Part shown: one piece after another, positions 5,251 to 40,245 of the stretch | Layout of the letters: every line of letters starts with the position of its first letter | How positions within the stretch are numbered: the stretch's first letter is position 1 | From: a virus | IMG/VR virus record: IMGVR_UViG_3300050343_000150 | Coordinates: 27,748 to 91,747 of that record | Strand: one strand, 5' to 3' | Length of the DNA: 64,000 bases | Translations under genes and position numbers: made by a program | The notes under the pieces: generated by a model | The model's input: only the letters and a program-made list of their open reading frames with translations | Told to the model about the DNA's origin: nothing | Databases searched by the model: none

Positions 5251-8200
5251 TGGCTGATTCAGATAAAGATATTGTAATTACACCAAATACAGGGAACACC
5301 ACAAAACCAAAAATAGAATTTACTGGTGCAGATAATTCGGTTAAATATCTACAAGTTAACGATGATGGTAGTCTAACATTCAATGATACGATAACCGCAA
5401 CATCCGGTTCAGTTGCAAATGGGAATCAAAATTTAGTTACTGGAACTGCGGTGTTTGGTTATATTTCTGCGCGAAATTTTATATCAAACAATTCTAATAT
5501 AACAGTTGGTAATAATATAGGATTAGCAGGAGCATCAGGTAATAGTTTACGAATTACAACTGCACAAGCGGCCTCTAATGGTGCGATTTTATCATTCGTT
5601 GGAAGTGATAATAACAGTATAAGTAATCTGACAATACCATCGGGTGATGGAACAATATCAACTTCTGACACTCAACTTACCACTGAAGAAGTTCAAGATA
5701 TAGTTGCCGCTATGATAGTCGGCGGTACTAATATTTCCGCAGCATATAATGATTCAGGTGGACTTTTAACTCTTGCAGTAAATGGACATAGAACAGTTAC
5801 AGCAGGTGGTAACACATTAGGTGCAACAGAAACACTTGCCCTAACTGCTGGCTCTAATGTTACGATTAGTGAAAGTGGAGGAGCAGTTACTATTGCTTCA
5901 ACAGATACTAATACTGACACAAATACACAGAATGTTTTCACATCCTCATTTGTTGATTCATCTAATGATACTATACTCAGGTTAACTAAAAGTGGTGCAT
6001 CAAGTGGTACTCAGGACATTAAGTTTGTAGCAGGTTCTAATGTAACATTAACACCTAGTGGAACAAATTTAACTATTGCTTCTACTGATACTAATACACA
6101 ATTATCATTACTTGACGAAGATAACTTTGCATCAAACAGCGCAACTGCTGCTGCTAGTCAACAGTCAATTAAATCATATGTAGATACTTCAGTTTCTAAT
6201 TTGGTGGCATCTGCACCTTCTGCATTAGATACTTTAAATGAACTTGCAGCAGCCTTAGGAGACGACGCGAGTTTTTCCACAACAACTGCTACTTCTCTAG
6301 GTAATAGACTTAGAATAGATGTAAGTAATCAAGGATTAAATTCTACACAACAGAGTAATGCTTTAACTAATTTAGGAATTACAGCAACATTAGCAGAAAT
6401 AAACATATTAGATGACGGACTTGCAACAGGAGATATACCTGCATTAGCCACTTCTAAAATCACATCGGGAACATTTGCTGATGCTAGAATAGCACAATCG
6501 AATGTTACTCAACATCAATCGGCTTTATCTATAACTGAATCACAAATTAGTGATTTACAATTTAAATTATTACCTGAAGTTCTATTTAACGATACTAATT
6601 TTGGGTTCAGTTTACTAATACAAACAGGTACTACTAACGCTGCCCCAACAACAGGTACGCTAGATAATGCAACTTTCAATATAGGATTAGGAAGTAATGT
6701 ATTTTCTTCATTAACATCAGGAACAAGAAATGTTGCTGTTGGACATGAAGCGGGGAGAAATTTAACAACTTCTGCTAGAAATACATTACTTGGTGCAGAA
6801 GCAGGACATGATATTACTACTGGTGGTAACAATGTTGCAATAGGAGATTTAGCCGGAGATAAAATTACTACTGGAAGCCAAAATACGTTGATTGGTGCAG
6901 AAAGTGGAGGAAATATTACTACTACATCATACAGTATAGGTTTAGGTAATAAAGCATTACTAGGTTCAACTGGAACAGCAAATATAGGAATAGGTTATCA
7001 GAGCCTTAACCATACTTCTCATTCAGGTTCATACAATGTAGCAATAGGACATCAAGCCGCACATAATGCTACGGGGGCAAATGGTAACAACATCGGTATT
7101 GGTAAATCATCATTGTATAATGTTACAGGAGGTTATAATTATGCAATAGGTGACGAAAGCGGTCAAGGTATAACTTCAGGTAGTAGTAATATTGCAATAG
7201 GAAGTAAATCTTTAGGAGGCTCAGGTACAGTTGTTACAAATGCACATAATATCGCCATAGGTAATAATGCTCTAAAAACTGGAGGTACACTTTCCGGTGG
7301 GTTGAATACTGCATTTGGATATGCTACTGGAAGTTCCTTAACAACAGGTCAAGGAAATTTATTATTAGGATTTACAGCAGGGAACAATATTACTACTGGT
7401 AGTGAAAATATAGTAATCGGTGCAGCAGATGTACCTTCTGCTACTGGTAATCATCAATTGTCAATATCTGATAATGGTAATGGGTCAGTAGTATGGATTA
7501 CAGGTGATTCTTCGGGACACGTTTCTTTAGGAAACTATGAATTTAACGCTGACCAAACAGTAGGTTCAGGTCAAGACAATTACGTTTTAAGGTACGACCA
7601 CTCAACCGGACAAATCGGTTTGGAAGCAGCAGGTGCAGGTGGAGAAAACAATCAAAATGCTTTCAGTAATGTAGCAGTAAGTGGACAAACAACTGTCGCA
7701 GCAGATTCAGCAACTGATACTCTTACTCTAGCCGCAGGTGCTAATGTTACATTAACAACTAATGCATCTAATGATACAGTAACTATCGCAGCAACTGATA
7801 CTAACACCAATACTCAACTTTCAACAGAACAAGTACAAGATATTGTAGGTGGTATGCTTGTTGGAACAGAAACAAGAATTGGTGTAAGTTATGATGATAC
7901 TAACGGTAGAATTAACTTTGTTGTAGATGATATGACAACAGATACTAATACATTTAGAACAGTAACTGCTGGAGGCAATACACTTGGTTCAAGTGAAACT
8001 CTTGCATTTACAGCAGGAAGTAATGTAACAATAACTGAATCCGGTGGTTCAGTAACAATAGCCTCAACAGATACCAACACTAACACTACTTACTCAGCAG
8101 GTAGTGGTATTGCTCTAAGTGGAACTACATTTAGTGTTGCAGGAGGAACTGGTTTATCCCAAACTTCTAGTGGGTTGGCATTATCACACTTAGGTATAGA

Positions 8201-11200
8201 AAGTCTTTCTGACCCTAATGCTGATAGGATTCTAATTTGGGATGATTCAGCAGGGGCTATTGCATTTGCTACACCAAACAGTAACATTTCAATTGATGGT
8301 ACAAATATTAACACTACTAACACACAACTTTCTACTGAGCAGGTGCAGGATATAGTAGGTGCAATGTTAGTAGGTACTGAAACTAGAATTGGTGTAACCT
8401 ATGATGATACAAACGGCAGGATTAATTTCGTAGTAGATGACATGACGGCAAACACCCAATTGACGTTGCTTGACCAAGACAATATGAGTTCGAACAGTGC
8501 TACCGCCGCAGCAAGTCAACAATCTATTAAGGCATATGTTGATGCAGAGATAGCAGGACTTGTTGATTCGTCTCCTAGTGCATTAAATACCCTAAACGAA
8601 TTAGCGGCGGCTCTTGGAGATGATGCTTCATTTTCAACTACTACGGCTACTTCTTTAGGAAATAGATTGAGAGTAGATGTAAATAACCAAGGTTTAAACT
8701 CAACTCAACAAGGAAATGCACTAACAAATCTAGGAATAACTGCCTCACTTGCTGAGATTAATATTCTAGATGGTGGATTAGCAGCATCTAACATTACTGA
8801 AATATCTAATTTGACAGCAGCAGAAGGAGAGCAATTAGAAAATATTGGTAGCACAACAATCTCCGCAACACAATGGGGTTATCTCGGTGGTTTAACTGCG
8901 GCAAAAGTAATAGATTGGTCGGTATCACAAACATTTGATGATATTCATCCAAATAATCAACACTCAGCAGGTACTAACCTCACATTAAGCGGTACTACTC
9001 TTAATGTTGATGATGCTTTCTTAGTCAATAATGCTAACGATACTACAACGGGTACTATTACTGCGGCTGGTTTTACAACAGCAGGGATAGTTGATGGTGT
9101 TAATTTCAAAATAAATGGCGGTCAAGGTTCTGACGGTCAAGTTCTAACTTCAACTGGTTCAGGAGTTGCTTGGGAAGATGCCGCAAGTGGTGGTGATTCA
9201 AATGCAGGTGGTGTTAATGGTTCAGCAGGTGCGCCTACATTTTCATTTGCTTCTGATACTAATACAGGAATGTATAGATTAACAGGTGATACTTTAGCAT
9301 TCTCAGTTGGTGGTTCTAATGCTATGTATATGCAACCATCTAAGGTTGAAGCGAATAAAAGATTTGAAATTATTGCAGGTTCTAATTCTGCTCCGGGTTT
9401 GTCATTAGCAGGTGATGATAATACAGGAATATACCGATATGCAGAAAATCAAATAGGATTCACAACAGACGGAACGGCTCAACTATTGATTAAAGATGGT
9501 GCAATAGAACCTGTTACTGATAATGATATAGATTTAGGAACATCCTCTCTAAAGTTCAAAAACTCATACTTTGGGTTAGTAGATGCTGAAAACTTCAAAG
9601 TAAATGGAGGGCAAGGTAATGACGGCCAAATCCTAACTTCAACAGGTAGTGGTGTTGCATGGGAAAATGCCGCAGTTGGTGGTATAGCAAGTTTAGCCGC
9701 AGATGACACGCCACAGTTAGGTGGAGATTTAGATGTTAATGGAAATAGTATTGTTTCAACTTCAAACACTGCAATAAATATTACACCAAATGGAACAGGA
9801 GATATACAACTTAATGCTGATACTATTAGAGTAGGAGATTCTAATGCAGATGTTACAATTGCACCTAATATTAGCAGTACAACTGCTAAACTTCAATTTC
9901 AATCAGATGGAGATACATTACTTAGAACAGCAAGTGGTACAGGAAATATGTATCTTAATGCTAATTCATTAATGTCAATGCAAGCAACAACTTTTAGATT
10001 TGGTACTAGCGGGGGTAATCCAACATTAACTACATTAGGAACAAGTGATTTAACTCTTAATACAAATAGCGGAACAAACTCCGGTTCTATTGTAATTGCA
10101 GATGGTGCTAATAGTGATATTAGTATTACGCCAAATGGAACAGGTCAAGTAAACTTAGGTAACTTTCAATTTGATGTAGACCAAACAGTAGGTTCAGGCC
10201 AAGATAATTATGTATTAACTTACGACCATGCTAATACACAAATTAGTTTAGAAGCAGCAGGTGGTGGTGGTGCTTCTGATATTGGCGCACTAGATGATGT
10301 ATTGATGGATGCTACTAATTTCACTAATTCACTTTTAATTCAAACCAACAGCGATACATCCGCACCTACAACGGGTACACTAAGTAGTGCTAATGAAAAT
10401 ATAGGAATAGGTAGAGATGTATTCAAGGTCTTAACAAGTGGTTCACAAAACGTATCAATGGGGAGTTACACATTAGATGCAGTTACAACAGGTAGTAACA
10501 ATACCATCATCGGTCATAATGCGGGAACTAGAATTGAAGATGACTCAGAAAATACATACATCGGTCAGGGTGCAGGTGCTAATTCAATAGGCAGTTTCAA
10601 CGTAGCATTAGGTTCAAGTACGATGACAGGTAGCAGTTCAACACTTCATACTGGTAGTCATAACGTAGCACTAGGTCGTGGCGCGATGACTAAAGTTCAA
10701 GGAGATGCGGCAGGTAACGTAGCTGTATAACACAACAACAGGTGGTTACAACATTGGTATAGGTCAAAATGCTTTAGAAAGAAATACTACTGAAGGTAAT
10801 CAGATTGCCATTGGTTCATCCGCTATGGGTGGTGCATATAATCAAGCGGCGACAGGTGCATACAATCTTGCTATTGGGAATCAAGCCTTGAGATATGGCG
10901 CACAGGACAATGGAAACTTTAACATTGGAATAGGCTATAAAGCACTTTATGGCTCTAATGGTAATAGTAGTGCTGCTAATTATAATATAGCAATCGGTTA
11001 TGAAGCGTTAGAGGCAAATACAACCGGAGATAGTAACGTAGCAGTAGGAACACAAGCGTTAGAAGCAAACACAACAGGTACAAGAAATCTCGCAATAGGT
11101 TATCGTGCCTTAGATGCCGCAGATACAGAAAACGATAACATAGCAATAGGTTATGATGCTTTAGGTGGTTCAGTAGCAGGTGCAGAATACACAGTAGCAA

Positions 11201-13271
11201 TTGGGAATTACACGCTTGATGCTTTAACATCGGGAGATAACAACACAGCAGTAGGTTATAATTCTGCAACAGCATTAATCGAAGGAAATCATAACACGGC
11301 AATAGGTTCTTACTCTTACTTTAGAGCAACAGATGGAACATATAATTGTGTTATAGGACAAAACTCAGGTGGAGGTTTAAGGTCGGGTAGTTATAACATA
11401 GTAACAGGCTTTAATACAATGGTCAAATAAATAATGACGGAGACTACAACGTAGCAATAGGCACACACTCTATGAATGCCGCAACAGGTAATGACGTTAA
11501 TTATAACACAGCAATAGGCACAAGTTCATTACAAAGTATTACATCAGGCGCGAAGAACATAGCATTAGGACAAACTGCCGGAAATAATATCACTAGCGGA
11601 GATTTTAACGTAGTAATTGGTGCGGCTGATGTAGCAAGTGCAACAGGTGATAGTCAGTTATCAATAAGTTCTGGTGATGGTGGTGTTACTTGGATAACAG
11701 GTGCTTCAACAGGTGCAGTAGATATTCCCGGTTCTTTAACAGTAGCGGGTTCAGCAGTTGGTGGTGCTTCTGACCTCAATGGTTTAACGGATGTAATTAG
11801 TAATATTACTAACTTTACAGACAGTATGCTAATTTCTACTGATAATGCTGCACCTCCACATGGCACACTAAGTAGTGCCAATGACAATTTAGGGATAGGT
11901 AAAGATGCACTTAGAACATTAACAAGCGGTACAAAAAACGTAGTTATTGGTAACTATGCTGGAGATGCTTTGACAACTAGTAGGGAAGTTGTGTTGATTG
12001 GATATAATGCAGGTTCGTCAATAACAGGAAGTAAACACGATTCAGTAGTAATTGGTTCTAATGCGCTGTGTGAAGCAGCAGACCCAAGTAACACAGTAGC
12101 AATAGGACAAAGTGCAGGTCAATATGCTGAGGGCATTCAAAATGTAATGGTTGGAGTAAGTGCAGGTAAATACTGGCAAAATACCGGCCTTAATTCTCAA
12201 AAGAATGTATTTATTGGTAGTAGTGCTGGAAATAGAGGAACAGTTAATGGTGAACAAACATGGGTTACTGTTGTTGGCGCAGATGCCGGTAGTAGAACAG
12301 CGATAGGGTCTTTTTCAACAATTATAGGTGGTGGTTCAGGGCTATGGTCTCCCGGACAAAGTAATACATTTCTTGGTCAGTATGCAGGTCAAGGAAATGC
12401 TAACGTAACTACATCCTCTAACAATAATATAGCAATTGGTAAACAGGCCTTGTATGGTCATCAAATGACATCTTCAGGTAATAACGTAGCAATTGGGCCT
12501 TCAACGTTGTATAATACTACAACAGGTTCTTTGAATATTGCTCTTGGTAATAGTGCCTTAAATGATGTAACATCAGGCGGCAACAACATAGGTATAGGAT
12601 TCGGTGCGGGGGATTTAATAACAACTGCTGATAAAAACATTACAATTGGTTATGATGCTGGAAATAATATTACAACAGGTTCTAACAACGTAGTTATTGG
12701 TGGTGCTGATGCGCCTTCTGCAACAGGTAATGACCAATTAGTTATCGCATCCGGTGATGGTTCACCTACATGGTTAACAGGTAATTCGTCAGGAGTTGTT
12801 GACTTTCCCAATGGAACAACAGGTACAGGTTCTTTCTACATTACAGCAGAAGAAAGTAATTGGCAATTAAATGTAGGTGAGTCAAATGGTTTCCATTGGT
12901 CTTTTGGTAACGGTGCTGATATAGGAGATGCACCTTCTAGTAACGCAAAGAACGAAGGTATTGCACTACCTGTTGATTGTACACTAAAGTTCTTACATTT
13001 AAACTGTGCAAATGACGGTAATGAAACCGCAGGTAACAGTGCAACTGTTCAGATATACAAAGCAACTTCGGCCACTGCTACTCAATCGGCAGTTGCTAAT
13101 ACTGGAATAACTGCTACTGTTGCGACAAATGGACACGGTGTATCTGCTACTGGTGATTATGACGTTGATTTTAACAAGGGAGACATTATTCTTTTCCGTT
13201 CAACTACGGCTAATCAGTCAGGTATATATGTCGGAAGAGGAACAATATCAGCATATTTCGTAGAGAGGTGA
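5250..13271 (+). CDS. Giant tail fibre / adhesin protein 2 (two compensating frameshifts)
   Basis: About 2,670 residues once two frameshifts are bridged: near 10,730 (frame 0 to +1) and near 11,430 (back to frame 0). Repeat sequence continues across both, so this is one gene with probable sequence errors. It shares the LNELAAALGDD module with the upstream fibre. It also has long stretches of YadA-head-like beta-roll repeats (NVAIG/NTAIG/NIGIG units about every 14-20 residues), roughly 6.7-7.4 kb and 10.4-12.7 kb. The C-terminal ~145 residues (from FYITAEESNWQLN to ISAYFVER) are a non-repetitive cap, probably receptor-binding. Role inferred: second attachment fibre or partner of fibre 1. Confidence 0.83.
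6690..7440 (+). repeat. Beta-roll (YadA-head-like) repeats, block 1
   Basis: Degenerate tandem coding repeats of about 45-60 bp within fibre 2, translating as alternating xTGxxN and VAIGxxA units. Similar units resume at about 10.4-12.7 kb. In trimeric adhesins such repeats form left-handed parallel beta-rolls. Confidence 0.7.
10380..12730 (+). repeat. Beta-roll (YadA-head-like) repeats, block 2
   Basis: Second, longer block of NxAIGxxAL / TTGSxN units within fibre 2. It contains both frameshift points (near 10,730 and 11,430); the repeat register resumes in another frame each time, which is why the breaks read as indels within one gene. Confidence 0.7.
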
Positions 13272-30515: not shown

Positions 30516-30732
30516 TATTATTCCTCATTTTAATTACTTTTTCGAGAGCCTTGTGAACATCTTTCATCTCGTCCATGTTCATTCTAATACCTTTTTTGGT
30601 AGGATTACCATTTATATGCCAACGCACATCTACTACATGTAATTTCCAATATTCGCCAGTTCTGATGATTAACTCATTACTAGCGTCTCTTGGTATTCTC
30701 GCAATTATTTTTTCATCCTTCAAGCCAACCAC
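30484..30732 (-). CDS. PC4-like single-stranded DNA-binding protein
   Basis: About 80 residues. The pattern WKLHVVDVRWHINGNPTKKG followed by IRMNMDEMKDVHKAL matches the PC4/p15 coactivator core (strand, D.R.W, kkGI.L, helix). A TTG start at 30,723 with AGGAG 8 bases upstream is likely; a GTG at 30,732 is the alternative. Such proteins bind melted DNA in transcription and replication. Confidence 0.5.
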   Translation of the reverse strand: MVGLKDEKIIARIPRDASNELIIRTGEYWKLHVVDVRWHINGNPTKKGIRMNMDEMKDVHKALEKVIKMRNNNEFNKNEQDV

Positions 30733-31111
30733 TCCTAAATTGTTGTAGGGTTTTCCACGACTTAAAATATCGTGGTGATTCTTGTTTATCTATTCTGTGT
30801 GCAACCCAAACAACACCACCGAGACTACTTATCTTAACCAATTCATACGTTTTACCTTCAACATCGAACATATCTTCTGTTTGCACATCAGGTACTAAAC
30901 CAAACTTCTGTGATAACTCATTAGCCACCTCATCCATATGTTCAGCGACATACTGAACAATCAAATGTCTTTGTATTGGTACTTTAGCATCAACTGTTAC
31001 CTTAATCTTACCCTGCATTTCACATACCTTACATTTATTACCTTCACAAATAGGACAAGGGATTTCCGCAGGTAGCGGAGCAGGAAAGCGAATTGTTACA
31101 GCCTTCTTCAT
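30713..31111 (-). CDS. DnaJ-type zinc-finger protein
   Basis: 132 residues from MKKAVTIRFP (ATGA overlap with the lipoprotein stop). The cysteine cluster CPICEGNKCKVCEMQGKI is a half DnaJ-type zinc motif. The rest is alpha/beta (HLIVQYVAEHMDEVANEL). Unknown function. Confidence 0.55.
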   Translation of the reverse strand: MKKAVTIRFPAPLPAEIPCPICEGNKCKVCEMQGKIKVTVDAKVPIQRHLIVQYVAEHMDEVANELSQKFGLVPDVQTEDMFDVEGKTYELVKISSLGGVVWVAHRIDKQESPRYFKSWKTLQQFRSGWLEG

Positions 31112-31587
31112 ATTCTGCCATCCCAAATTCTGTATGTTACTTCGTAGGTAACAGTTACATCAAAAGGAAATGCTGCGAAATGTAAAGTGGCATTGCCAAA
31201 TTCAGGAGCGAGTCCTTCTTGCCAATATACCTTCCCATTAACAGTATCCTGTACAATATATCCTCTCATATCAAAAGAATAATTGTTAAAGATAACTGTA
31301 TTGTTAGTCACAGTGAAACTTAGGTGGGTAGCGGTATAATTTAGACCACCTATCTCTAACGCTCCATATGATGTATTAACATCTAACCATATAGTAGGAG
31401 CATAGATTAACGTTTGATTAGTGTTGTTGCTCATTTCTAATGTAAACTCTCCTGTTTCTGTTACCCATTCGTTTGTTGGTTCATCATCACTAAAAATTTC
31501 ACTTGGTGATGGTATGCTCTCTGTACATCCTGCTAGCATTATACACACTAGAAGTAATGATATTATTTGTTGTTTCATAGTCGTCAT
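31108..31587 (-). CDS. Secreted lipoprotein with many N-glycosylation sequons
   Basis: About 159 residues. A signal peptide (MKQQIISLLLVCIMLAGC) with lipobox LAGC predicts lipid anchoring. The mature part is beta-rich with at least six NxS/T sequons (NNT, NQT, NTS, NYT, NYS, NAT), consistent with archaeal surface glycoproteins. It lies inside the replication operon but behind its own TATA box. Possible superinfection-exclusion or cell-surface function; inference only. Confidence 0.75.
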   Translation of the reverse strand: MTTMKQQIISLLLVCIMLAGCTESIPSPSEIFSDDEPTNEWVTETGEFTLEMSNNTNQTLIYAPTIWLDVNTSYGALEIGGLNYTATHLSFTVTNNTVIFNNYSFDMRGYIVQDTVNGKVYWQEGLAPEFGNATLHFAAFPFDVTVTYEVTYRIWDGRI

Positions 31588-31622
31588 AGTATTCAACCTA
31601 TTACTTCGGAGATAGTGGAAGG

Positions 31623-31640: not shown

Positions 31641-31700
31641 TCAGTTAAAGATTAAACCGAATTCAACTAATGTTGTTTGTCTACTGTTTTCTATATTCAT
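31641..31700 (-). CDS. 19-aa microprotein carrying a PIP-box-like motif
   Basis: Reads MNIENSRQTTLVEFGLIFN. QTTLVEFG fits the PCNA-interaction consensus Q-x-x-L-x-x-F-x. The ATG overlaps the JAB-protease stop (TAATG), as at many real junctions in this operon. May be a free clamp-binding peptide; chance is possible because it is so short. Confidence 0.4.
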   Translation of the reverse strand: MNIENSRQTTLVEFGLIFN

Positions 31701-32245
31701 TATTCTTCCTCCAATGCTTTTTCTGCTGCTTCAACCCATGCCGGTTTCTTAGAACCTTCTTTTTGATAAATAGCATAGTTTACTTTCTTTGCAATTTCTG
31801 TTGCTGTATCATATGCAATATATTGGTTATCACCTAATACAGTTGCACTTAACATTACAGATTTCCATGTATGTATAGTGTTCCAATCTGTTCCGCTAAA
31901 GAATGCTTGACCAAAAGGGTGTGTGTGTATCCAACATTTGATTGGTAATTTCATACCACCTAGTTGTTCTTCTTGGTCCTTGAAACTAACGAAACCAAAC
32001 GTCCCTACACTAATGTATAAATCATCTTTGCTATCTACAATAACTTGTACTTCTCTAGGAGAATCAAATGCATTCAATGACATGTCCCAAATAACAGAAT
32101 AAAATGCTTCTGTTGCTGCATTAGGATATGGATAACTAAACTGTATTTGTTGAAATACTTGTCTAATATTATCCTGCCATTTCTCATCCTTAATTTCAAT
32201 TTTATTTTCTATCCAATCACTATCTTCTGTTTTTATTTCATTCAT
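31700..32245 (-). CDS. JAB/MPN+ (JAMM) metalloprotease
   Basis: 181 residues. CWIHTHPFGQAFFSGTD carries the complete zinc motif H-x-H-P-x-G...S-x-x-D (H107, H109, S117, D120). JAMM proteases cleave after the C-terminal Gly-Gly of ubiquitin-like proteins or remove them from targets. An E1-like enzyme is encoded 1 kb upstream in the same operon, and a GGC-ended beta-grasp protein 6.5 kb upstream. No tail-protein context, unlike the lambda gpK JAB domain. Confidence 0.75.
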   Translation of the reverse strand: MNEIKTEDSDWIENKIEIKDEKWQDNIRQVFQQIQFSYPYPNAATEAFYSVIWDMSLNAFDSPREVQVIVDSKDDLYISVGTFGFVSFKDQEEQLGGMKLPIKCWIHTHPFGQAFFSGTDWNTIHTWKSVMLSATVLGDNQYIAYDTATEIAKKVNYAIYQKEGSKKPAWVEAAEKALEEE

Positions 32246-32507
32246 TTTCCAACACTTCCTTTGCTTTAAGCAATGCTCCCACTAAATTATTAATGTCTCT
32301 AGCGTGTAGAGGTTCATTACTATTCATAAAAGCCATTTTTAATCTGACTGCCATAACCACTGTATCATTACAGTTACTACAACACCTACCATTATTTATT
32401 GGTTCTGCGTTATGTCCTTCTGTCCAATAAGGCACACCTTCTTCTGTATATTTAATATCTATTACATCTTCACATATACTACATTGTTTCATTTCTATTT
32501 TATTCAT
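32238..32507 (-). CDS. Phage-type zinc protein (CSIC...GRCCSNCN)
   Basis: 89 residues. CSICEDVID, EGHNAEPINNG and RCCSNCNDTVV form a zinc-binding pattern common in uncharacterised phage proteins, followed by a helix. Overlaps the JAB start by 8 bases. Function unknown. Confidence 0.6.
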   Translation of the reverse strand: MNKIEMKQCSICEDVIDIKYTEEGVPYWTEGHNAEPINNGRCCSNCNDTVVMAVRLKMAFMNSNEPLHARDINNLVGALLKAKEVLENE

Positions 32508-32750
32508 TTATATTCCTCCCATTTGTTTTACTATTGTATCCTGAGCATTTTCAAATTCATGATATGCTCTATGACCTGCAATGAATCCACCTGCATGTCT
32601 TTTAGTTCCTAAGAACTCTTCACCACAAGCAGGGCAAGATACTTGCACAATCTCTGCTTGTTTGTAATATCCGTCGGTAGATATCACATCCATTATTTCA
32701 CCGACATCTTCTTCTGATATATCATCTATGTTTGCGTCTTCTTTACTCAT
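32508..32750 (-). CDS. C2H2-type zinc-finger protein ending in GGI
   Basis: 80 residues. An acidic N-terminus (EDANIDDISEEDVGEIMD) precedes a single finger CPACGEEF...GHRAYHEF (CxxC...HxxxH). It ends KQMGGI. Possibly DNA-binding. The GG near the end is noted because of the nearby JAB protease, but the fold is a zinc finger, not beta-grasp. Confidence 0.55.
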   Translation of the reverse strand: MSKEDANIDDISEEDVGEIMDVISTDGYYKQAEIVQVSCPACGEEFLGTKRHAGGFIAGHRAYHEFENAQDTIVKQMGGI

Positions 32751-33016
32751 ATTTTCACCTTCAAATAATACCTCAATGTTTTAGTTGGTTTGGGTATGTG
32801 TTCCAACGGAGATTCTACTTTCCTCTTGATAGTTTTCTTTACATCGACTTTCGATACTTCTTGTCGTACAAGTATATCTCTTCTATATTGTTCCCTCCAC
32901 ATAACTTGAATACAGTCATTACATAACCTTCTACTATTTGCCAAGTGTTCAGGAACAGGCTCATCCTCTTTACCACAAAGAGTCTTACCTAATATTGAGA
33001 AGCAGATGTACTTCAT
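32747..33016 (-). CDS. Unknown cysteine-containing protein, 89 aa
   Basis: KYICFSILGKTLCG and RRLCNDCIQVMW supply two cysteine pairs, probably one zinc site, then a basic tail (VDVKKTIKRKVESP). ATGA-type overlaps on both sides. No family recognised. Confidence 0.5.
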   Translation of the reverse strand: MKYICFSILGKTLCGKEDEPVPEHLANSRRLCNDCIQVMWREQYRRDILVRQEVSKVDVKKTIKRKVESPLEHIPKPTKTLRYYLKVKI

Positions 33017-33243
33017 TCTCCCTTCTCCTTGTAGGCAGGATGTGTCTTCGGCAACCTGTGCAGTCTTCTCACAATCATATTGTTTACTAAAGCAGCAGCA
33101 GATTCTGCACCGTCATTAAATCTCTTTAACGCGACTGCATCTCCGGTCGGACACATCTCTTGTTCCAGTAAAGTTAGGTCTATCTCATTCATGATAAATT
33201 TCAATACTTCATACTCGACATGAATTTTAGATGCTGCTCTCAT
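33013..33243 (-). CDS. Unknown small helical protein, 76 aa
   Basis: Starts MRAASKIHVEYEVLKFIM; helical throughout, with a basic C-terminus (IVRRLHRLPKTHPAYKEKGE). It overlaps the E1-like stop by 4 bases, so it is translated with it. Not beta-grasp and no E2-like cysteine, so not an obvious partner of the E1/JAB pair. Confidence 0.5.
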   Translation of the reverse strand: MRAASKIHVEYEVLKFIMNEIDLTLLEQEMCPTGDAVALKRFNDGAESAAALVNNMIVRRLHRLPKTHPAYKEKGE

Positions 33244-33836
33244 AGGTTCACCATCTTCATATCTATAACATCATCATTATCATTAAACCAACGTTGAATC
33301 CACTGAACACCCATACCTGCTATTACCATATTCATACAGTTAATATCTTCCGCACTACCATCCCATGATTGTGCTTGACATGAAAAAGAACCTTCTTCTC
33401 CTGCTAAAAGAGTATTCATTAAGTCCGGATTTATTTTGTATGATACTAATGCAGCGTTCCTTCCAGTGGAACGTAGGTCTAACCACTTTAATTTTGTATC
33501 ATTCCCAAAACCCTGTTTGTATAATAAACGTCTTACTGCTAGGTTATCTGCACAACAGATAACTAAATCATATCCTTTAAGTTGTTTTTCTACAAGTACA
33601 TTAAATGGTTGTGCGTTAATACCTTGGATACATTCTACTTTCTTTTCACCTATATCTAATTCATCAAATGCTTGATAACCAAGATTCTTTCTATCCACAA
33701 CATCATCGTCAAATACAGTAATGTCATACAGATGAGTATTTGGAGTGTTATTCCTGTGTGCTTGATTCATTCTCTTGAGAAACTGTACTAGATAACTACC
33801 AATTCCTCCTGCTCCTACAATCATAACTCTTCTCAT
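33240..33836 (-). CDS. E1/ThiF-like adenylyltransferase
   Basis: 198 residues. VMIVGAGGIGSYLVQFL is the nucleotide-binding glycine loop. FDDDVVDRKNLGYQAF gives the acidic D-x-D-x-V-x-x-x-N-L of E1/ThiF/MoeB proteins; YDLVICCADN and GSFSCQAQ supply cysteines. Short for the family (~240), with no rhodanese domain. E1-like enzymes adenylate the C-terminal glycine of ubiquitin-like proteins. It shares the operon with a JAMM protease. Confidence 0.78.
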   Translation of the reverse strand: MRRVMIVGAGGIGSYLVQFLKRMNQAHRNNTPNTHLYDITVFDDDVVDRKNLGYQAFDELDIGEKKVECIQGINAQPFNVLVEKQLKGYDLVICCADNLAVRRLLYKQGFGNDTKLKWLDLRSTGRNAALVSYKINPDLMNTLLAGEEGSFSCQAQSWDGSAEDINCMNMVIAGMGVQWIQRWFNDNDDVIDMKMVNL

Positions 33837-34054
33837 TTCAAATCACCTTCCCAAATACCACTGAAAAGTATTAGGGTTTGTTCATCTATTTCCGATGTAA
33901 ATATTGTACCGCTTCTCATATGTATATCAATTACATACATTGCCTTCTTCAACATTGAAGTTGGGGTTTTAGCCACGGTAAAGGCAACACATTCGGATAC
34001 ATCTATTGTTGTCATTCCACTTTTAGTTTCTATCTTTATTTTCTTTCTGTTCAT
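33833..34054 (-). CDS. Unknown 73-aa beta-rich protein
   Basis: The ATG at 34,054 is chosen because GGAG lies 9 bases upstream, giving MNRKKIKIETKSGMTTIDVS. The pattern (KIKIETKSG, YVIDIHMRSG) is beta-rich and ends in GIWEGDLK with no terminal Gly-Gly. Overlaps the E1 start (ATGA). No family recognised. Confidence 0.5.
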   Translation of the reverse strand: MNRKKIKIETKSGMTTIDVSECVAFTVAKTPTSMLKKAMYVIDIHMRSGTIFTSEIDEQTLILFSGIWEGDLK

Positions 34055-34280
34055 TTTCATTATCTCCATAATATATTTTTTGTTGTTGTTGGTGTCTCCA
34101 TGCATCGATTATTTCATGCGTGATTCCATCCATTGTTGCGCCTACGACACTTAGTGCATCTTCTAACACAGTTCTTCGCACTACATTCCTCAACTGTGGT
34201 AGTTTTTCGTATTCTTCTATTACCATACTAAAATGGTATTGCATTTTCTTTAGTGTTTGTATTATATTATCTTCCATCAA
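34023..34280 (-). CDS. Unknown helical protein, 85 aa
   Basis: Starts MMEDNIIQTLKKMQYHFSM; a helical bundle-like body (VVRRTVLEDALSVVGATMDG) and a charged Gln-rich tail. Overlaps the TFB stop. No family recognised. Confidence 0.5.
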   Translation of the reverse strand: MMEDNIIQTLKKMQYHFSMVIEEYEKLPQLRNVVRRTVLEDALSVVGATMDGITHEIIDAWRHQQQQKIYYGDNENEQKENKDRN

Positions 34281-35146
34281 TATGCCCCGCTTAAAAATTG
34301 GTCTACATCCATTTCCATTAGTTCTTTTTTAGTAAGACCTAATGAATTAGACAAGTCCTTGGTTGCCATACGCAATCCGATTGTAGAAGCATTTCCTGAC
34401 TTATCTACTAACTCTGTTTGTGTATGGATTTCATCTTCCATCTGTCCTACTAACCAAAGAGTAGCACAGATTAAATTGGTAGTATATCTTTTACCAACCT
34501 CATTGAAAAACACTTCAATGTGTTCAACAACTCGTATTGATTTACTTCTATAATTAGAAGATACATTATCTAATTTGTCAAGAATACCTATTGTTATTAG
34601 AACAGGGTTATGTGATGACAGTATGTGTGATTTTCTAAAGAATCTTGCAATACGTTTTGCGTATTTAGATATCTTACTTTTACTCACTTTACTATATCCA
34701 CTGTGTTGTTTCAAAACAACTGGGACACCTGCCTCCTTTAACATAAAATATGTTAATGCTGCTGCTCTATCTTCTATTGGTATACCTCGTAAAACATGTT
34801 CATTTTTTAATGAGATAAAATATCCTTTGACACTATTCCTAATGTCTGAGGAAACATTGTAATAAGACAATATCATATTACACAATCTAAACATTCTCTT
34901 ATCTGCTTCAGTATAGGGATTGCTCCAAATATTTTGTGTTTTAAGTCTATAACTCATCTTAGTAGGAGTTTCAATAATATGAGAACCTAAATCTCTTGTT
35001 ACTTCGTAAGAAGAATCTTCTTTCCACTTAACCGTCTCTTCAAAGGGTCGTATCATTTGAATCAACCCACAACTTGAACACACTTTTTCACCCAATACTT
35101 CGTCGAAGTAGTATGTATTGTGATTACACTCAACGCAAGCCATCAT
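34277..35146 (-). CDS. Transcription initiation factor TFB/TFIIB-like
   Basis: 289 residues. The N-terminal zinc ribbon CVECNHN...CSSCGLI (C4, C7, C23, C26) is typical of TFB. Two cyclin-like repeats follow (EDRAAALTYFMLKEAGVPVV and TTNLICATLWLVGQ), then a helix-turn-helix end (STIGLRMATKDLSNSLG). About the length of archaeal TFB (~300). A virus-encoded TFB would redirect host RNA polymerase, perhaps to the special promoters at 42.7-47.1 kb. Confidence 0.8.
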   Translation of the reverse strand: MMACVECNHNTYYFDEVLGEKVCSSCGLIQMIRPFEETVKWKEDSSYEVTRDLGSHIIETPTKMSYRLKTQNIWSNPYTEADKRMFRLCNMILSYYNVSSDIRNSVKGYFISLKNEHVLRGIPIEDRAAALTYFMLKEAGVPVVLKQHSGYSKVSKSKISKYAKRIARFFRKSHILSSHNPVLITIGILDKLDNVSSNYRSKSIRVVEHIEVFFNEVGKRYTTNLICATLWLVGQMEDEIHTQTELVDKSGNASTIGLRMATKDLSNSLGLTKKELMEMDVDQFLSGAY

Positions 35147-36438
35147 TTATACAACGCTCCCGGATATTTATCTTCGACCCATTTCTTGACAGGCATAGAT
35201 TCTTCAGTATGTGTTAAATTAAATACATCACTATCACTTAGTCGATAAGTTGTAGAGTCAACACGTGCTAGAGTATGAATCATTGATTTAGCCACTACAT
35301 CATTCTTCAATATCATTGCCCTTGCTGCTATTTGGTCGCCAATACTAGAATTACCATGTAAATTATCTATACAGAAAGGCCCAAGATATTCGAACCCTCC
35401 ACCATATGCATTACCTTCCTTACCTATCACGAATACAACTTTAACACTTTGATGTCTAGAATCAGGAGAAGAAGGATAAACAATCCAGTCTCCTAACTTC
35501 CCTCTTACTAACATTGAGAAATCATAGGTTTTAGATATTGTAAGTTTACTAAAGTACTTAGAAAGCCACTTTTTATTACGTATTAAAAATAACTCTTTAT
35601 GAGAATCATCTAATTCTACCAATAGTTCTTTGGCTCTAGTTTCCACCATCTTAGATGTTCTATTTTGTTTCAACCATGCTGTCATTAATGTAAGTTCGGA
35701 ATCACTAGGTTCTGATTTCATTATGTTAGTCCACAATTTTTTAGGAGAAATATTAGCCCACTTAGTAGACCTTGATTTATTATATCGGTAACTATCAATC
35801 AAGGTGTTGACATCTTTAATGTTTATACTTCCCCAAATACCATCACATAATTCTAGGGCGACTTCTTTTTTACTGATAGCAGTTAAATTAATCCTAACAG
35901 ATATCTTCTGCCCCATTTCATAAAAATGATATGGCATTCTGTTCTCTAATGCATACATTACATTTTCAGGATAATTTATACATCGGTCTATGTAATTATT
36001 CATAGCAACAGCACTTCTGTTATTTGCACCAAACATAATTATCTTTGATAGTGCAGAAACAATATCCTTCATGTTCTTATGCACCCCATTCATATGATAT
36101 CTAGACGAATCTTTTCTTAATAGAATAGAACTATCACCATCATTGTACCTAAAGGTAACATATGTAATAAATTCATCATTATCGCTAGTCCACATAGTTG
36201 TAAAAAATGTTTTTTTAACAACATTAGAGAACTCTACTAATAGTGGGTCATCGCTAACATGTCTACTACTTGCAATAGATGGCATTGGTATTTTAATTTC
36301 ATATTCACCGAATTTATTCAATCTATGTTTGCGAATAGAACCAACCACTCGACTCTTTGCATCAGATTTAACTAAGAAAGAACTGCTTCGCATATTACTA
36401 TTATCACTTATAGAAGGTATCAAGAATTTTATTTTCAT
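35143..36438 (-). CDS. Unknown 431-aa protein
   Basis: The ATG at 36,438 is chosen because GGTGAT lies 7 bases upstream; it starts MKIKFLIPSISDNSN. Mixed alpha/beta with a Ser/Arg/Lys-rich first half and a conserved-looking late segment (KLGDWIVYPSSPDSRHQ, AYGGGFEYLGPFCIDNLHG). No motif recognised. It lies between TFB and ribonucleotide reductase. Confidence 0.6.
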   Translation of the reverse strand: MKIKFLIPSISDNSNMRSSSFLVKSDAKSRVVGSIRKHRLNKFGEYEIKIPMPSIASSRHVSDDPLLVEFSNVVKKTFFTTMWTSDNDEFITYVTFRYNDGDSSILLRKDSSRYHMNGVHKNMKDIVSALSKIIMFGANNRSAVAMNNYIDRCINYPENVMYALENRMPYHFYEMGQKISVRINLTAISKKEVALELCDGIWGSINIKDVNTLIDSYRYNKSRSTKWANISPKKLWTNIMKSEPSDSELTLMTAWLKQNRTSKMVETRAKELLVELDDSHKELFLIRNKKWLSKYFSKLTISKTYDFSMLVRGKLGDWIVYPSSPDSRHQSVKVVFVIGKEGNAYGGGFEYLGPFCIDNLHGNSSIGDQIAARAMILKNDVVAKSMIHTLARVDSTTYRLSDSDVFNLTHTEESMPVKKWVEDKYPGALYK

Positions 36439-36697
36439 ATATATCACCGTATTCATCTTTATTGTCTGTATAGTATTTTTTAACACCATACAATTCCTTA
36501 ACTTTATCCCAACTTTTTATTTTAGAATAGCCCATTCTAATATAGTAAACTATTCTTCTTTCAGCATACTTCGCAGTCACTGAACCATCTTCGAGGTGTC
36601 GGAAAACTACCTCGGTAGATTTTTTTGCTCCATTATTTGTCATGGAAGATATTATTTCTGATTTAAGAAATATTAACTTATTTCTATCCATTTTCAT
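36404..36697 (-). CDS. Unknown 97-aa basic protein
   Basis: Starts MKMDRNKLIFLKSEIISSM. The segment VTAKYAERRIVYYIRMGYSK suggests a small nucleic-acid-binding helical fold. Overlaps the ribonucleotide reductase stop. No family recognised. Confidence 0.55.
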   Translation of the reverse strand: MKMDRNKLIFLKSEIISSMTNNGAKKSTEVVFRHLEDGSVTAKYAERRIVYYIRMGYSKIKSWDKVKELYGVKKYYTDNKDEYGDIYENKILDTFYK

Positions 36698-38586
36698 ATT
36701 TCACAAACTCCACCTGCACAGGCTAACTCCCCTTGCAAGTTTGTGTTGTCCATTGATTCATAAACTTCAGATAAATCAATGCTCTGAAGTAACATAAACA
36801 TTTTTTGATATGTCTCTTTATCAATTGCTTCGAAAGGTGCTTGTTTATACAACCCACCATCATATGGTAAAACAGAAAGACCATTGTAATAGTCTCTATT
36901 TTTCCACATCCAATTCTTAACATCATCCCATTCGTCTTCACGAATATTAACTGTGGCAGATACATTGTGAGTATTGACACCTCTATTGTGTCCACTCATT
37001 ACCCACCTGACAGAGAATTCTTTGACTCGTTCTAACATCTCTAATGCAGATTCTTCTCTAGTAATCACATTACCATCAGGAGTTTTCTGAGGTATAGATA
37101 TGATTGCCTGATTAGGATTGAAGTAATCGTCTTCTACTAATTCAGGTAATTTGTTTAGCAGGTATGTGTAAATTGCTTCTGTTTTTAGAACTCTAAGTCT
37201 CCTAATATAATATTCAGAAAACCATCCATGGATTCCTGAAGAAGAACCTAATACTAGACTAGTAGTTCCCGCAGGTTTTACACAAGTTATTCTTGCAGCA
37301 GTTCTGATACCCAAAAGAGTTGCAAATTTTTCGTTTTCTTTCCTAGCAACATCTGCCGCCTTCTCTAAATCTAAACTAGAAACTTTATTGCTAGCAATAC
37401 CTGTCATAGACACTCCTAGTAATGCATCCTTCTCAGAAGTTCTTTTCCAAACTTCTCTCAAATAGTGAAAATCTGTATAAGATGCTTGTAGTGTTCCCAA
37501 GAAAGCAGCAATAGCAACTCTCATGTTTAAATCAGATTGGTCTGTAACAGTAGAAGCATTAACTTCTGTTAGGTTACAGAACTGATATGGTCTTAGTGCT
37601 ATTTCACAACACGGATTAGTTCCCCAGTCCTTATCATTAGTTAGATAAAATCCCGGTTCTCCAGTTCCGGACTCTTGAACTCTAGTCCATAAATTATTAA
37701 AGAAATCTCTTTTTATTCTATGTCTTAATAGAACAACAGAATTATTCGCTCTTGCTCTCTGAGGATTAGTGTCCCAAAATTGTCCTGATTTACAAGTCAA
37801 CATTTCATCATCGTCTGCACTAAACAAACTAATTAGTGCTGCACGTCTAATACCTCCTGCTAATACTGCATCAGCAATATAACAAACAATATCGTGTGCT
37901 TCTAATGAAGATAGTTTGTCCCCATTAGTCTTACTAGAAAGAATACCTTCAACTTTAACTAGACATTCTTTTAGTGGTTGTGGACCGGGTGCTTTTCCAC
38001 CACTAGTTTTCAATGGTGAACCCTTAGGTCTAATATCAGAATAGTCGAAGCGAACTGTTGTTGCTCTTTTACCGATATAAGATTCGAATAGTACTTTTAC
38101 TGCATCAGCCCAACCCTCAATAGAATCACTAACTAAGTGTCTATATGTTCTACTAGGATTAGGTAATATAATTTCGGGTAATTTATCTACGTGGTGTCTT
38201 TGTACTGAGAAGCCCACGCCTGTTCCTCCCAAAAGTAAGAACATTGCTTCTGCAAATGATACATAGGAATCAATTGGCATATAAGCACAATTGTATACTC
38301 TATTAGGAGATAACTCAATCGGTTTACCTGCAAATTGCATTGACCTCATTGAAGGTAATACTTTCTTAGGTATAACAAAATTTTCATATGCATTGTGTAT
38401 TGCAGCAATTAATTCTGTTTCTGATTCTTTAGTAATCCCATCTCTAGTGCTTACTGATTTGATATGCATATCCATATTGCGCTTACATATTTCTTCCCAT
38501 GTTTCTCTACGCATTTTCATTTCATTATATTTACCGTATTTCATATGTACTGTTATATCTGATAATATCTCTTGTTGTAATTCCAT
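36694..38586 (-). CDS. nrdJ: Ribonucleotide reductase, adenosylcobalamin-dependent (class II)
   Basis: 630 residues, monomeric type. VYNCAYMPID and NPCCEIALRPYQFCNLTEVN carry active-site cysteines, GGTGVGFSVQ the substrate loop, VKPAGTTSLVLGSSSGIHGW the phosphate-binding end, and GHNRGVNTHNVSATV matches the B12-dependent triphosphate reductase group. C-terminal CAGGVCEI is the redox pair. Supplies deoxynucleotides without oxygen or a small subunit but needs B12. Ribosome binding site AAAGGAGAT. Confidence 0.85.
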   Translation of the reverse strand: MELQQEILSDITVHMKYGKYNEMKMRRETWEEICKRNMDMHIKSVSTRDGITKESETELIAAIHNAYENFVIPKKVLPSMRSMQFAGKPIELSPNRVYNCAYMPIDSYVSFAEAMFLLLGGTGVGFSVQRHHVDKLPEIILPNPSRTYRHLVSDSIEGWADAVKVLFESYIGKRATTVRFDYSDIRPKGSPLKTSGGKAPGPQPLKECLVKVEGILSSKTNGDKLSSLEAHDIVCYIADAVLAGGIRRAALISLFSADDDEMLTCKSGQFWDTNPQRARANNSVVLLRHRIKRDFFNNLWTRVQESGTGEPGFYLTNDKDWGTNPCCEIALRPYQFCNLTEVNASTVTDQSDLNMRVAIAAFLGTLQASYTDFHYLREVWKRTSEKDALLGVSMTGIASNKVSSLDLEKAADVARKENEKFATLLGIRTAARITCVKPAGTTSLVLGSSSGIHGWFSEYYIRRLRVLKTEAIYTYLLNKLPELVEDDYFNPNQAIISIPQKTPDGNVITREESALEMLERVKEFSVRWVMSGHNRGVNTHNVSATVNIREDEWDDVKNWMWKNRDYYNGLSVLPYDGGLYKQAPFEAIDKETYQKMFMLLQSIDLSEVYESMDNTNLQGELACAGGVCEI

Positions 38587-38672
38587 TTAATTTCATCTCC
38601 TTTAGATTGTTGATATGGGCTTTGCACCCACTCGGTAGTCGTATCGTCTAAACTACTAAGACAGTTTACGGT

Positions 38673-38876
38673 CTAACATCCACCGACGACGGCAGGTATT
38701 AGGTTTACTTCAGTTACCGAATCCCAACTAACTGTTGAAATGTTTTCACGTGTAACTAAGTCTCCATCAACGAAAACCCAATGTGTTGGGTGGTCATTGA
38801 TTTGTTCTATCGCTTGCTCAGAAGTTAATTCCGGCAAGGTTGTGTGTCCTGTTTCATTCATTATTATCATTTTCAT
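38673..38876 (-). CDS. Ubiquitin-like beta-grasp protein ending in Gly-Gly-Cys
   Basis: 67 residues from the ATG at 38,876 (AAAGGAG 9 bases upstream). The order is strand MKMIIMN, hairpin TGHTTLPEL, helix TSEQAIEQINDHP, strand THWVFVDGDLV, and the final strand VTEVNLIPAVVGG followed by one Cys, as in ThiS/MoaD/ubiquitin-like modifiers. A single residue after GG would need trimming, which the JAMM protease of this operon could do. The fold is inferred from pattern and the terminus is seen directly. Confidence 0.6.
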   Translation of the reverse strand: MKMIIMNETGHTTLPELTSEQAIEQINDHPTHWVFVDGDLVTRENISTVSWDSVTEVNLIPAVVGGC

Positions 38877-39126: not shown

Positions 39127-40245
39127 TTATTTTTCCTCCTTAAGTTCATCGATTAATTTCGATACTTCTCCTTTAGATAGTGAATCTATATCTCCTTCGT
39201 ACCCCAATGCTCTTAGGTACTTTATCTGAGGTATGGTAGGGTTATCATTATACCGATTAATTATCTTCATTAATGTGCTAATTTGCTTGGGTGAGATATC
39301 CTTTCGTTCAGATACTCTATTTACCATATCAGTTAGGAATTTAGTTTCCCAATCATTAGATGCTAGTTTAGTAGTGAAGTGTGGAATACCGAAATATTCG
39401 CAACTCTCACGGAAATCTCTTTCGGTTTTCTCAGTCCAAACTTTATTCCTCAACTCTAACTGTTGTTCATATTTCATCTTCCTTTGCTGTGCGGCTTCAA
39501 TTGCATCATCTTCTTCTTTGACTTCTTGACGATGTTGAGCAATGAGAGCGTGGAATATAGATAAGTCTTGCATTAATCTATCGTTAGGATAACCACGACC
39601 ATTCTGTTGATTTCTAGTGTTGTCAGGATGATTCCATCTCCACACAATAGAAGCCATTTCATAATCGGGAGTATATACTTCACCACGACTAACCTTTCTA
39701 ATTTTAGTTTGTTCAGTACGAATACCTAACTTATTATCCCACATATATCTACCAGTTCTTCTGACATTAATACGTAAATCCAATTCTTTAATTTCATTAA
39801 ATGTTGCAATGAAATCTTCTCCATTTGCATTCCACCATGCATCTTTCTTTAACGCACTAACTCTAACATCAATCCATTCTTGAATCATACTTTCTGTAAT
39901 AGCATCTGAATCAATACCAGTCTCTTCTGAAATTGCTCTAAGAATCATGTAAGAATTAATGTGGTCTGAACCAACACATTCTCTAACACCAGTTTCTGTG
40001 TTTTCTATTTCGAAATGATACACAATTCTATGTCCACATAAACATGTTCTAGGATGTTTGGCTGCCCAATTCGGTCTTGGAGTTCCAATACCTTGCCACC
40101 ATACTTCACCAGTTGCACGCCATTCATGTTTAGCATCATCGTAGTTATCTGAAAGAGATAATTCTGTCATATTCCTTTTCAGGAGTTTATCCCATCTACC
40201 ATTACCAAGTTCTCTTTTACCTAGTTTGTAGTCTTCTATCTCCAT
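39127..40245 (-). CDS. Unknown zinc-site protein, 372 aa
   Basis: CLCGHRIVYHFEIEN and RECVGSDHI form a C-x-C-x-x-H...C...H zinc pattern near residues 68-95. The middle is a long charged helix (EEDDAIEAAQQRKMKYEQQ). The end has a small repeated helical motif (ISPKQISTLMKIINRY and TIPQIKYLRALGYEGD). This architecture recurs in uncharacterised marine virus proteins. Perhaps DNA-binding. Confidence 0.55.
   Translation of the reverse strand: MEIEDYKLGKRELGNGRWDKLLKRNMTELSLSDNYDDAKHEWRATGEVWWQGIGTPRPNWAAKHPRTCLCGHRIVYHFEIENTETGVRECVGSDHINSYMILRAISEETGIDSDAITESMIQEWIDVRVSALKKDAWWNANGEDFIATFNEIKELDLRINVRRTGRYMWDNKLGIRTEQTKIRKVSRGEVYTPDYEMASIVWRWNHPDNTRNQQNGRGYPNDRLMQDLSIFHALIAQHRQEVKEEDDAIEAAQQRKMKYEQQLELRNKVWTEKTERDFRESCEYFGIPHFTTKLASNDWETKFLTDMVNRVSERKDISPKQISTLMKIINRYNDNPTIPQIKYLRALGYEGDIDSLSKGEVSKLIDELKEEK

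Follow-up and report, generated by a model that had tools for sequence, protein, structure and literature searches.

We put at about two in three the probability that magroviruses, the viruses of Poseidoniales, encode a self-contained ubiquitin-like system which, through enzymatic steps predicted here, most likely serves reversible protein conjugation. The system was found in a stretch of 64,000 nucleotides (the window, that is the whole stretch of DNA that was analysed) within the 91,747-base virus record IMGVR_UViG_3300050343_000150. It comprises a ubiquitin-like protein (UBL), an E1-like adenylating enzyme (E1), a JAMM/JAB metalloprotease (JAMM) and, as a candidate, a cysteine protein. Computation provides the fold, the motifs, an invariant Gly-Gly, co-occurrence in related viruses, links through operons and gene fusions, and common descent with a host system. 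A sequence-only reading of the window had taken the first three genes for a candidate conjugation module. This interpretation is supported, since the tests of fold, Gly-Gly and co-occurrence had a positive outcome and host operons and fusions link the trio independently; trimming, adenylation and conjugation themselves are predicted. The four genes, with protein lengths in amino acids (aa), are:

38673..38876, minus strand: UBL, ubiquitin-like modifier, 67 aa, end VVGG-C (AlphaFold, Foldseek, invariant Gly-Gly)
33240..33836, minus strand: E1-like adenylating enzyme, 198 aa (Pfam ThiF, PDB E1 matches, invariant C153)
31700..32245, minus strand: JAMM/JAB metalloprotease, 181 aa (PDB profile matches, motif kept in 93 homologues)
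35143..36489, minus strand: candidate transfer protein and putative fourth component, 448 aa (100/100 complete loci, invariant Cys373)

Predicted modifier, activating enzyme and protease of the viral operon

The open reading frames for UBL, E1 and JAMM are all present on the minus strand where they had been placed before, in a replication-side operon whose genes share one strand and in which stop and start codons overlap for many genes. The earlier description of a single leftward operon beside genes for a viral TFB and a ribonucleotide reductase agrees with this arrangement and with the Pfam matches of these two neighbours.

The UBL sequence matches no curated family above the cut-off (ThiS reaches 0.094 over residues 11-66), and the UBL profile gave no useful match against PDB sequences; structure prediction was therefore used. 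The AlphaFold model, based on 54 aligned sequences, has a predicted local distance difference test score (pLDDT) of 89 and shows the order b-b-a-b-b-a-b followed by a tail, which is that of a beta-grasp protein. Ubiquitin, NEDD8, ISG15, SUMO, MoaD and ThiS are among the structures found by Foldseek in the PDB, and nearly all of the best 50 structure matches possess the ubiquitin fold, so that the beta-grasp assignment, first made from the letters alone, now has a footing in a predicted structure. The modest values (best E 2e-3, template modelling scores of 0.4-0.56) are what a protein of this small size would be expected to give. SAMP1 is weakly matched by three of the 54 relatives (best E 0.033). 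The open reading frame is real, as judged from 77 distinct homologues and from purifying selection against the nearest relative (about 0.18 nonsynonymous versus about 1.4 synonymous substitutions per site).

Loss of the Gly-Gly end in close relatives, named beforehand as an observation that would speak against a modifier, was seen in none of the 77 distinct viral homologues. The residues behind it are of many kinds and number none in eight proteins, one in 34 and two in 35. A constrained Gly-Gly followed by a free tail is the pattern expected of a processed modifier. On the other hand, the terminal Cys, previously proposed as the residue that is trimmed off, is not conserved, and this detail has to be replaced by the removal of 0-2 residues of any kind. 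The UBL has both the predicted beta-grasp fold and the C-terminal exposed or exposable Gly-Gly of such modifiers; its attachment to targets is predicted.

The E1/ThiF glycine loop noticed in the 198-aa protein is corroborated by a Pfam ThiF match (4.7e-15) and, in the PDB, by family-profile matches with E-values of 1e-10 to 1e-9 to UBA5, MoeB, UBA3 and Cap2. Further matches there are the NEDD8 and SUMO E1s and BubCD, and the solved E1-like enzymes that come nearest include MccB. Conservation of the GAGGIGS loop (G8-S14) and of D43, D45, K66, D97 and R102 indicates a GxGGxG loop together with adenylate- and Mg-binding residues and places the protein among the E1/ThiF/MoeB enzymes. The candidate catalytic cysteine, C153 in the motif SFSCQ, does not vary among 87 viral and 26 host sequences and aligns with the conserved cysteine of ThiF from the PRTRC plasmid cassette; it would suit the predicted thioester or persulfide chemistry.

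As a single sequence the protease stays below the Pfam cut-off (Prok-JAB, 0.003). Its family profile, however, matches AMSH-LP (1e-5) and Rpn11 of Caldiarchaeum (2e-4) in the PDB over HTHP-x6-S-x2-D, and E65, H107, H109, S117 and D120 are kept in at least 98% of 93 homologues. The complete motif that had been read in this gene therefore stands, and the conserved pattern E...HxHP x6 S x2 D is that of the JAMM/JAB metalloproteases.

Viral contigs were scanned three times, once per protein, which yielded 130 loci, and each family profile was then searched in all of them. Together with the window this makes 131 loci, some of which share a contig; the contigs number about 87, plus the window. UBL, E1 and JAMM occur together in 100 of the 131 loci and the remaining loci stop before the expected position of the missing gene, so that the co-occurrence check called for by the sequence-only reading turned out positive wherever the contig is long enough. 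The UBL gene lies 2.5-6.5 kb before the E1 gene and the JAMM gene 0-1.7 kb after it; E1 and JAMM genes overlap or abut in more than ten loci. When the gene families of the interval were clustered across the 100 complete loci, two further families proved to be present in every one of them, a TFB-like factor and the 448-aa cysteine protein.

Near-viral E1 and JAMM genes in the virus gene order were also seen in the metagenome-assembled genome of Maricaulis sp. IN14 (L139, L140) and in two bins (G107, G202), all of which appear to contain magrovirus contigs.

A homologous system in Poseidoniales and shared descent

The E1 alignment, when used to search bacterial and archaeal genomes, retrieved proteins with about 30% identity from Poseidoniales, the presumed hosts. 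Several host loci contain, in this order, genes for a protein with the cysteine domain, UBL, E1 and JAMM, and the host UBLs end in GLVGGN, GLVGGY or GLIGGC. Among 293 Poseidoniales genomes the UBL is present in 124, JAMM in 136 and the E1, counted at E below 1e-12, in 128. UBL and JAMM are found together in 112 of these genomes, the UBL alone in 12 and JAMM alone in 24 (Fisher p 4e-42, a value that ignores shared ancestry). As a control, 150 genomes of a methanogen class were searched and the UBL was found in none.

Many host UBL genes consist of two to four tandem units, in each of which a final VGG or IGG is followed by a short linker; such tandem genes (L205, L213, L215, L219, L220, L222-L224, L244) occur in many of the 124 UBL-positive genomes and resemble polyubiquitin precursors. 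Furthermore, the components are fused in hosts, as UBL-UBL-E1 (L203, 1132-2373; L204), as E1-JAMM (L208, 1723-3012; L209, L212) and as UBL with a region like the cysteine domain (L202, 628-1710). Host operons and fusions therefore provide an independent link among UBL, E1 and JAMM. In one genome a single 2.06-Mb contig carries a tandem UBL at 111 kb and E1, JAMM and the cysteine protein at about 507 kb, and the host system is therefore chromosomal. Two host bins with a virus-like JAMM gene (E 1e-51) are probably contaminated. An RFC-like gene beside the host tandem UBLs was considered as a transfer enzyme and dismissed as a mere neighbour. In Methanosarcinales METP1 and Methanoperedens (L142, L150) an E1 homologue follows a gene for 712-741 aa and precedes one for a 166-aa protein ending in KGKGG; JAMM was not detected beside it.

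In a maximum-likelihood tree of 71 E1s the viral enzymes form one clade (support 95/95) beside one host clade (98/98), both of them clean, and the E1s of plasmid PRTRC cassettes and crAss phages stand apart from both (96/92). Viral and host systems share descent, and as the tree does not fix the root between them, the ancient transfer may have gone in either direction. Since the viral E1s constitute a single clade, the system is old in magroviruses and was not repeatedly captured; a recent capture from hosts was rejected on the same topology.

The cysteine protein, the proposed mechanism and its rivals

The 448-aa protein possesses a C-terminal domain with an invariant Cys373 in GP(F/I)CIDN and a GDQ motif. 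Its model (pLDDT 86) shows, in the C-terminal part, a helix, four strands, Cys373 and a helix. Foldseek found no matching solved structure in the PDB, and thus no E2; among viral models the sole good matches are three unnamed proteins. The protein was considered as an E2, as GPICIDN resembles the GxICLD of E2 enzymes and the strand order fits; Foldseek against the PDB, PDB sequence profiles and Pfam gave nothing, and the E2 assignment is retained as no more than a candidate. A SWIM-like nature of the domain was also considered and found no support in Pfam. The earlier statement that no E2 or E3 is recognisable still holds, with the conserved cysteine protein as candidate fourth component or transfer protein. 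Because it shares operons with the trio in virus and host, where the cysteine domain is common to proteins of the UBL/E1/JAMM operons, it may take over the UBL.

The following course of events is inferred, including what the enzymes and the cysteine protein do, when the system acts, what it targets and how the virus gains from it. JAMM would trim the 0-2 residues after Gly-Gly, free UBL units, and/or later strip the UBL from its targets. The E1 would adenylate the exposed glycine and probably load the UBL on C153, which is invariant in virus and host, whereas C95, the other conserved cysteine of the viral E1s, is not kept in the host enzymes. The UBL could then be handed on, directly or via the cysteine protein (35143-36489), and end up, in the course of infection, on lysines of proteins from virus or host. 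As a homologous system with tandem precursors exists in the host, the viral copy probably works in parallel with it or counters it. A more far-reaching version, possible and put forward tentatively, is that the virus lineage runs its own UBL conjugation, akin to the poly-UBL system of its host; an orphan cysteine domain would stand in for the E2, and host protein tagging would be redirected or blocked during infection.

Several points weigh against conjugation. The UBL matches ThiS and MoaD as well as ubiquitin, and eight of the 77 viral UBLs end exactly at Gly-Gly and need no trimming. The E1 has no domain set apart for a catalytic cysteine and is of the MoeB/ThiF-like type found in sulfur-carrier systems. 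An E2 or E3 is not demonstrated: no module protein has an E2 match in Pfam, PADLOC or the PDB, and neither PRTRC protein B nor any solved E2 is detectably similar to the cysteine protein.

With respect to biological role, the main rival is counter-defence, which can overlap with conjugation by the virus: UBL conjugation in the host would restrict the virus, and the viral set would mainly be an antagonist, whose JAMM would strip the host UBL and whose UBL and E1 would divert or poison the host pathway. Such a role would fit the homologous system in the host order, the antiviral action of UBL conjugation in bacteria and the proposal that JAMM proteins of Borg elements counter SAMP tagging (PMC12660748). 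An antagonist, however, needs neither an E1 with all catalytic residues nor its own modifier with an invariant Gly-Gly, and there is no evidence for a defensive role of the host system; we regard this explanation as unlikely.

The main biochemical rival is sulfur transfer, because the E1 falls into the MoeB/ThiF size class. In a system like ThiS, MoaD or Urm1, the E1 would adenylate the UBL, its invariant cysteine would deliver sulfur to give a UBL-thiocarboxylate for tRNA thiolation or a cofactor, and JAMM would free the Gly-Gly. The minimal MoeB/ThiF-like E1 with its invariant cysteine aligning with that of PRTRC ThiF and the weak UBL matches to ThiS and SAMP1 are consistent with this, and archaeal SAMPs perform both conjugation and sulfur transfer. 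Yet no rhodanese domain was found in the E1, family scans and neighbour clustering led to the recognition of no rhodanese, desulfurase or sulfur-acceptor gene in the neighbourhood, and the tandem host UBLs look like polyubiquitin precursors. Moreover, thiamine and molybdopterin operons are devoid of JAB genes (Iyer et al., 2006; PMC1779556). A sulfur-carrying function appears rather improbable.

Activation of a small peptide or metabolite by the E1, as by MccB or in the formation of ribosomally synthesized and post-translationally modified peptides, with the UBL as peptide substrate or an unrelated small protein, could be suggested by the position of MccB among the nearest solved enzymes and is very improbable in view of a folded 67-aa domain with invariant Gly-Gly, the host UBL-E1 fusions and the constant JAMM partner. 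Processing in virion tail assembly, for which the Ub-like/JAB pairs of phage tail clusters set a precedent (lambda tail proteins I, Ub-like, and K, JAB plus NlpC; PMC1779556), is hardly credible for genes that lie in a replication-side operon and have an E1 beside them but neither NlpC nor tail genes.

Neighbouring genes and known systems

Four other conserved genes surround the module or lie within it:

34277..35146, minus strand: TFB-like transcription factor (Pfam Zn_Ribbon_TF 4e-7; 100/100 loci)
36694..38586, minus strand: B12-type ribonucleotide reductase (Pfam 3.8e-9 and 5.4e-8; 69/100 loci)
30713..31126, minus strand: 137-aa protein with CPxC...CxxC, downstream of JAMM (89/100 loci; four Cys invariant)
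39127..40245, minus strand: 372-aa protein with CxCGH motif, upstream of UBL (91/100 loci; Cys kept in 94%)

The TFB-like factor is a conserved neighbour but without evidence of belonging to the mechanism. The ribonucleotide reductase gene sits between those for the UBL and the 448-aa protein; as a functional partner of the UBL the enzyme was discarded, being found in just 69 of the 100 loci. A chaperonin gene is present in 44 loci of the same neighbourhood and a 76-aa gene resembling a co-chaperonin in 36. From these counts neither reductase nor chaperonin is part of the module. Between JAMM and the 137-aa protein a predicted lipoprotein (start LLLVCIMLAGC, 31108-31596) is kept in 54 loci. 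Window positions 49-13271 encode proteins of 1733 and 1826 aa, both very long, together with two more open reading frames with repeats of ADDAITTAKIADD and NIAIGNxAL, which are probably tail-fibre-like.

Among known systems, the PRTRC plasmid cassette (ThiF, A (JAB), B (E2-like), C (Ub-like), E, F, ParB), which resembles the type 6d operon of Iyer et al., 2006 (PMC1779556), likewise occurs on mobile elements and unites genes for a Ub-like protein, an E1, a JAB protein and a cysteine protein. Its ThiF is clearly related to the viral E1 (hhalign 99.1%, E 4e-19), and PRTRC_ThiF is the nearest NCBIfam model (6e-16), with a score below the family cut-off (58.5 versus 144.75 bits). In contrast, PRTRC C and B reached hhalign probabilities below 1% against UBL and cysteine protein, which also gave no NCBIfam matches; in PRTRC_C a lone Gly (KG or NG) closes the conserved domain where the viral UBL has GG; the viral E1 groups with Poseidoniales E1s and not with PRTRC; and no ParB-family protein was recognised among the neighbouring genes examined. 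Membership in PRTRC, suggested by the E1, was rejected because UBL and cysteine protein are unrelated to C and B. Most or all of the PRTRC set (C, F, B, A, ThiF) occurs in the 33-kb genome of Burkholderia phage BgVeeders33 (L134, 1776-5699).

The haloarchaeal SAMP/UbaA/HvJAMM system shares a beta-grasp modifier with Gly-Gly, a MoeB-like E1, JAMM and no known E2. The viral E1 falls far below the cut-off of the UbaA model (28.6 versus 450 bits) and is not of the UbaA type, nor is the UBL a SAMP family modifier. The viral genes are co-located, whereas linkage between Jab and Ubl genes is said to be rare in archaea (PMC2948915). The ubiquitin operon of Caldiarchaeum (Ub, E1, E2, RING, Rpn11) also has a precursor with residues after Gly-Gly and a related JAMM; unlike it, the viral set was found to contain neither E2 nor RING, and its E1 is a minimal adenylation domain. 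Antiviral systems of bacteria (BIL/type 6, Bub, CBASS Cap2/Cap3) follow the same logic of E1, Ub-like protein (or CD-NTase) and JAB, whereas the viral set lacks an E2 domain and is virus-borne; PADLOC E1-E2 models match the viral E1 over no more than its N-terminal ~70 residues (2.6e-5). In the tailed virus crAss001, gp76 (ThiF, annotated as thiamine biosynthesis) directly follows the JAMM-like gp77 (JAB profile 6e-4, weak; L132, 4256-6654). This E1 is larger (383 aa) and belongs to a different clade, and no GG-ended UBL was identified there; a Ub-like module in crAss-like phages is possible.

Operons for Ub-like, E1, E2-like and JAB proteins, some on mobile elements and some with tandem Ub-like repeats, were predicted in bacteria (Iyer et al., 2006; PMC1779556). 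MoeB/ThiF is among the commonest auxiliary genes in archaeal viral genomes according to RaFAH and was tied to the first ubiquitination step (PMC8276007), and the JAMM proteases of Borg elements were proposed as SAMP removers (PMC12660748). Discussions of magroviruses (PMC10160649; PMC5628999) do not mention ubiquitin, ThiF or JAB. One marine group II genome has domains of the ubiquitin pathway according to an article on ubiquitin origins, whose relevant passages do not describe the present system (PMC4327156). By title and abstract, no publication joining Poseidoniales with ubiquitin deals with such a system. Neither the trio nor the poly-UBL system of the hosts was found described in the searchable literature, outside of which two main magrovirus papers, of 2017 and 2025, lie. 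A ThiF-family E1 in archaeal viruses had thus been noted before; new are the full viral set, the pattern of Gly-Gly and tail, the cysteine partner and the host poly-UBL system.

Animal viruses often hijack ubiquitin and rarely carry a whole pathway. Here, a module of modifier, activator and deconjugase recurs across a virus lineage, and a related system, with fused enzymes and tandem precursors like those of polyubiquitin, resides in a group that is among the most abundant archaea of the surface ocean. If active, it would represent a ubiquitin-type interaction or conflict between a virus and its archaeal host and a new branch among the prokaryotic relatives of ubiquitin signalling. It would also make it possible to test, in a concrete case, whether modifiers can be passed on by a cysteine domain that has no relation to known E2s.

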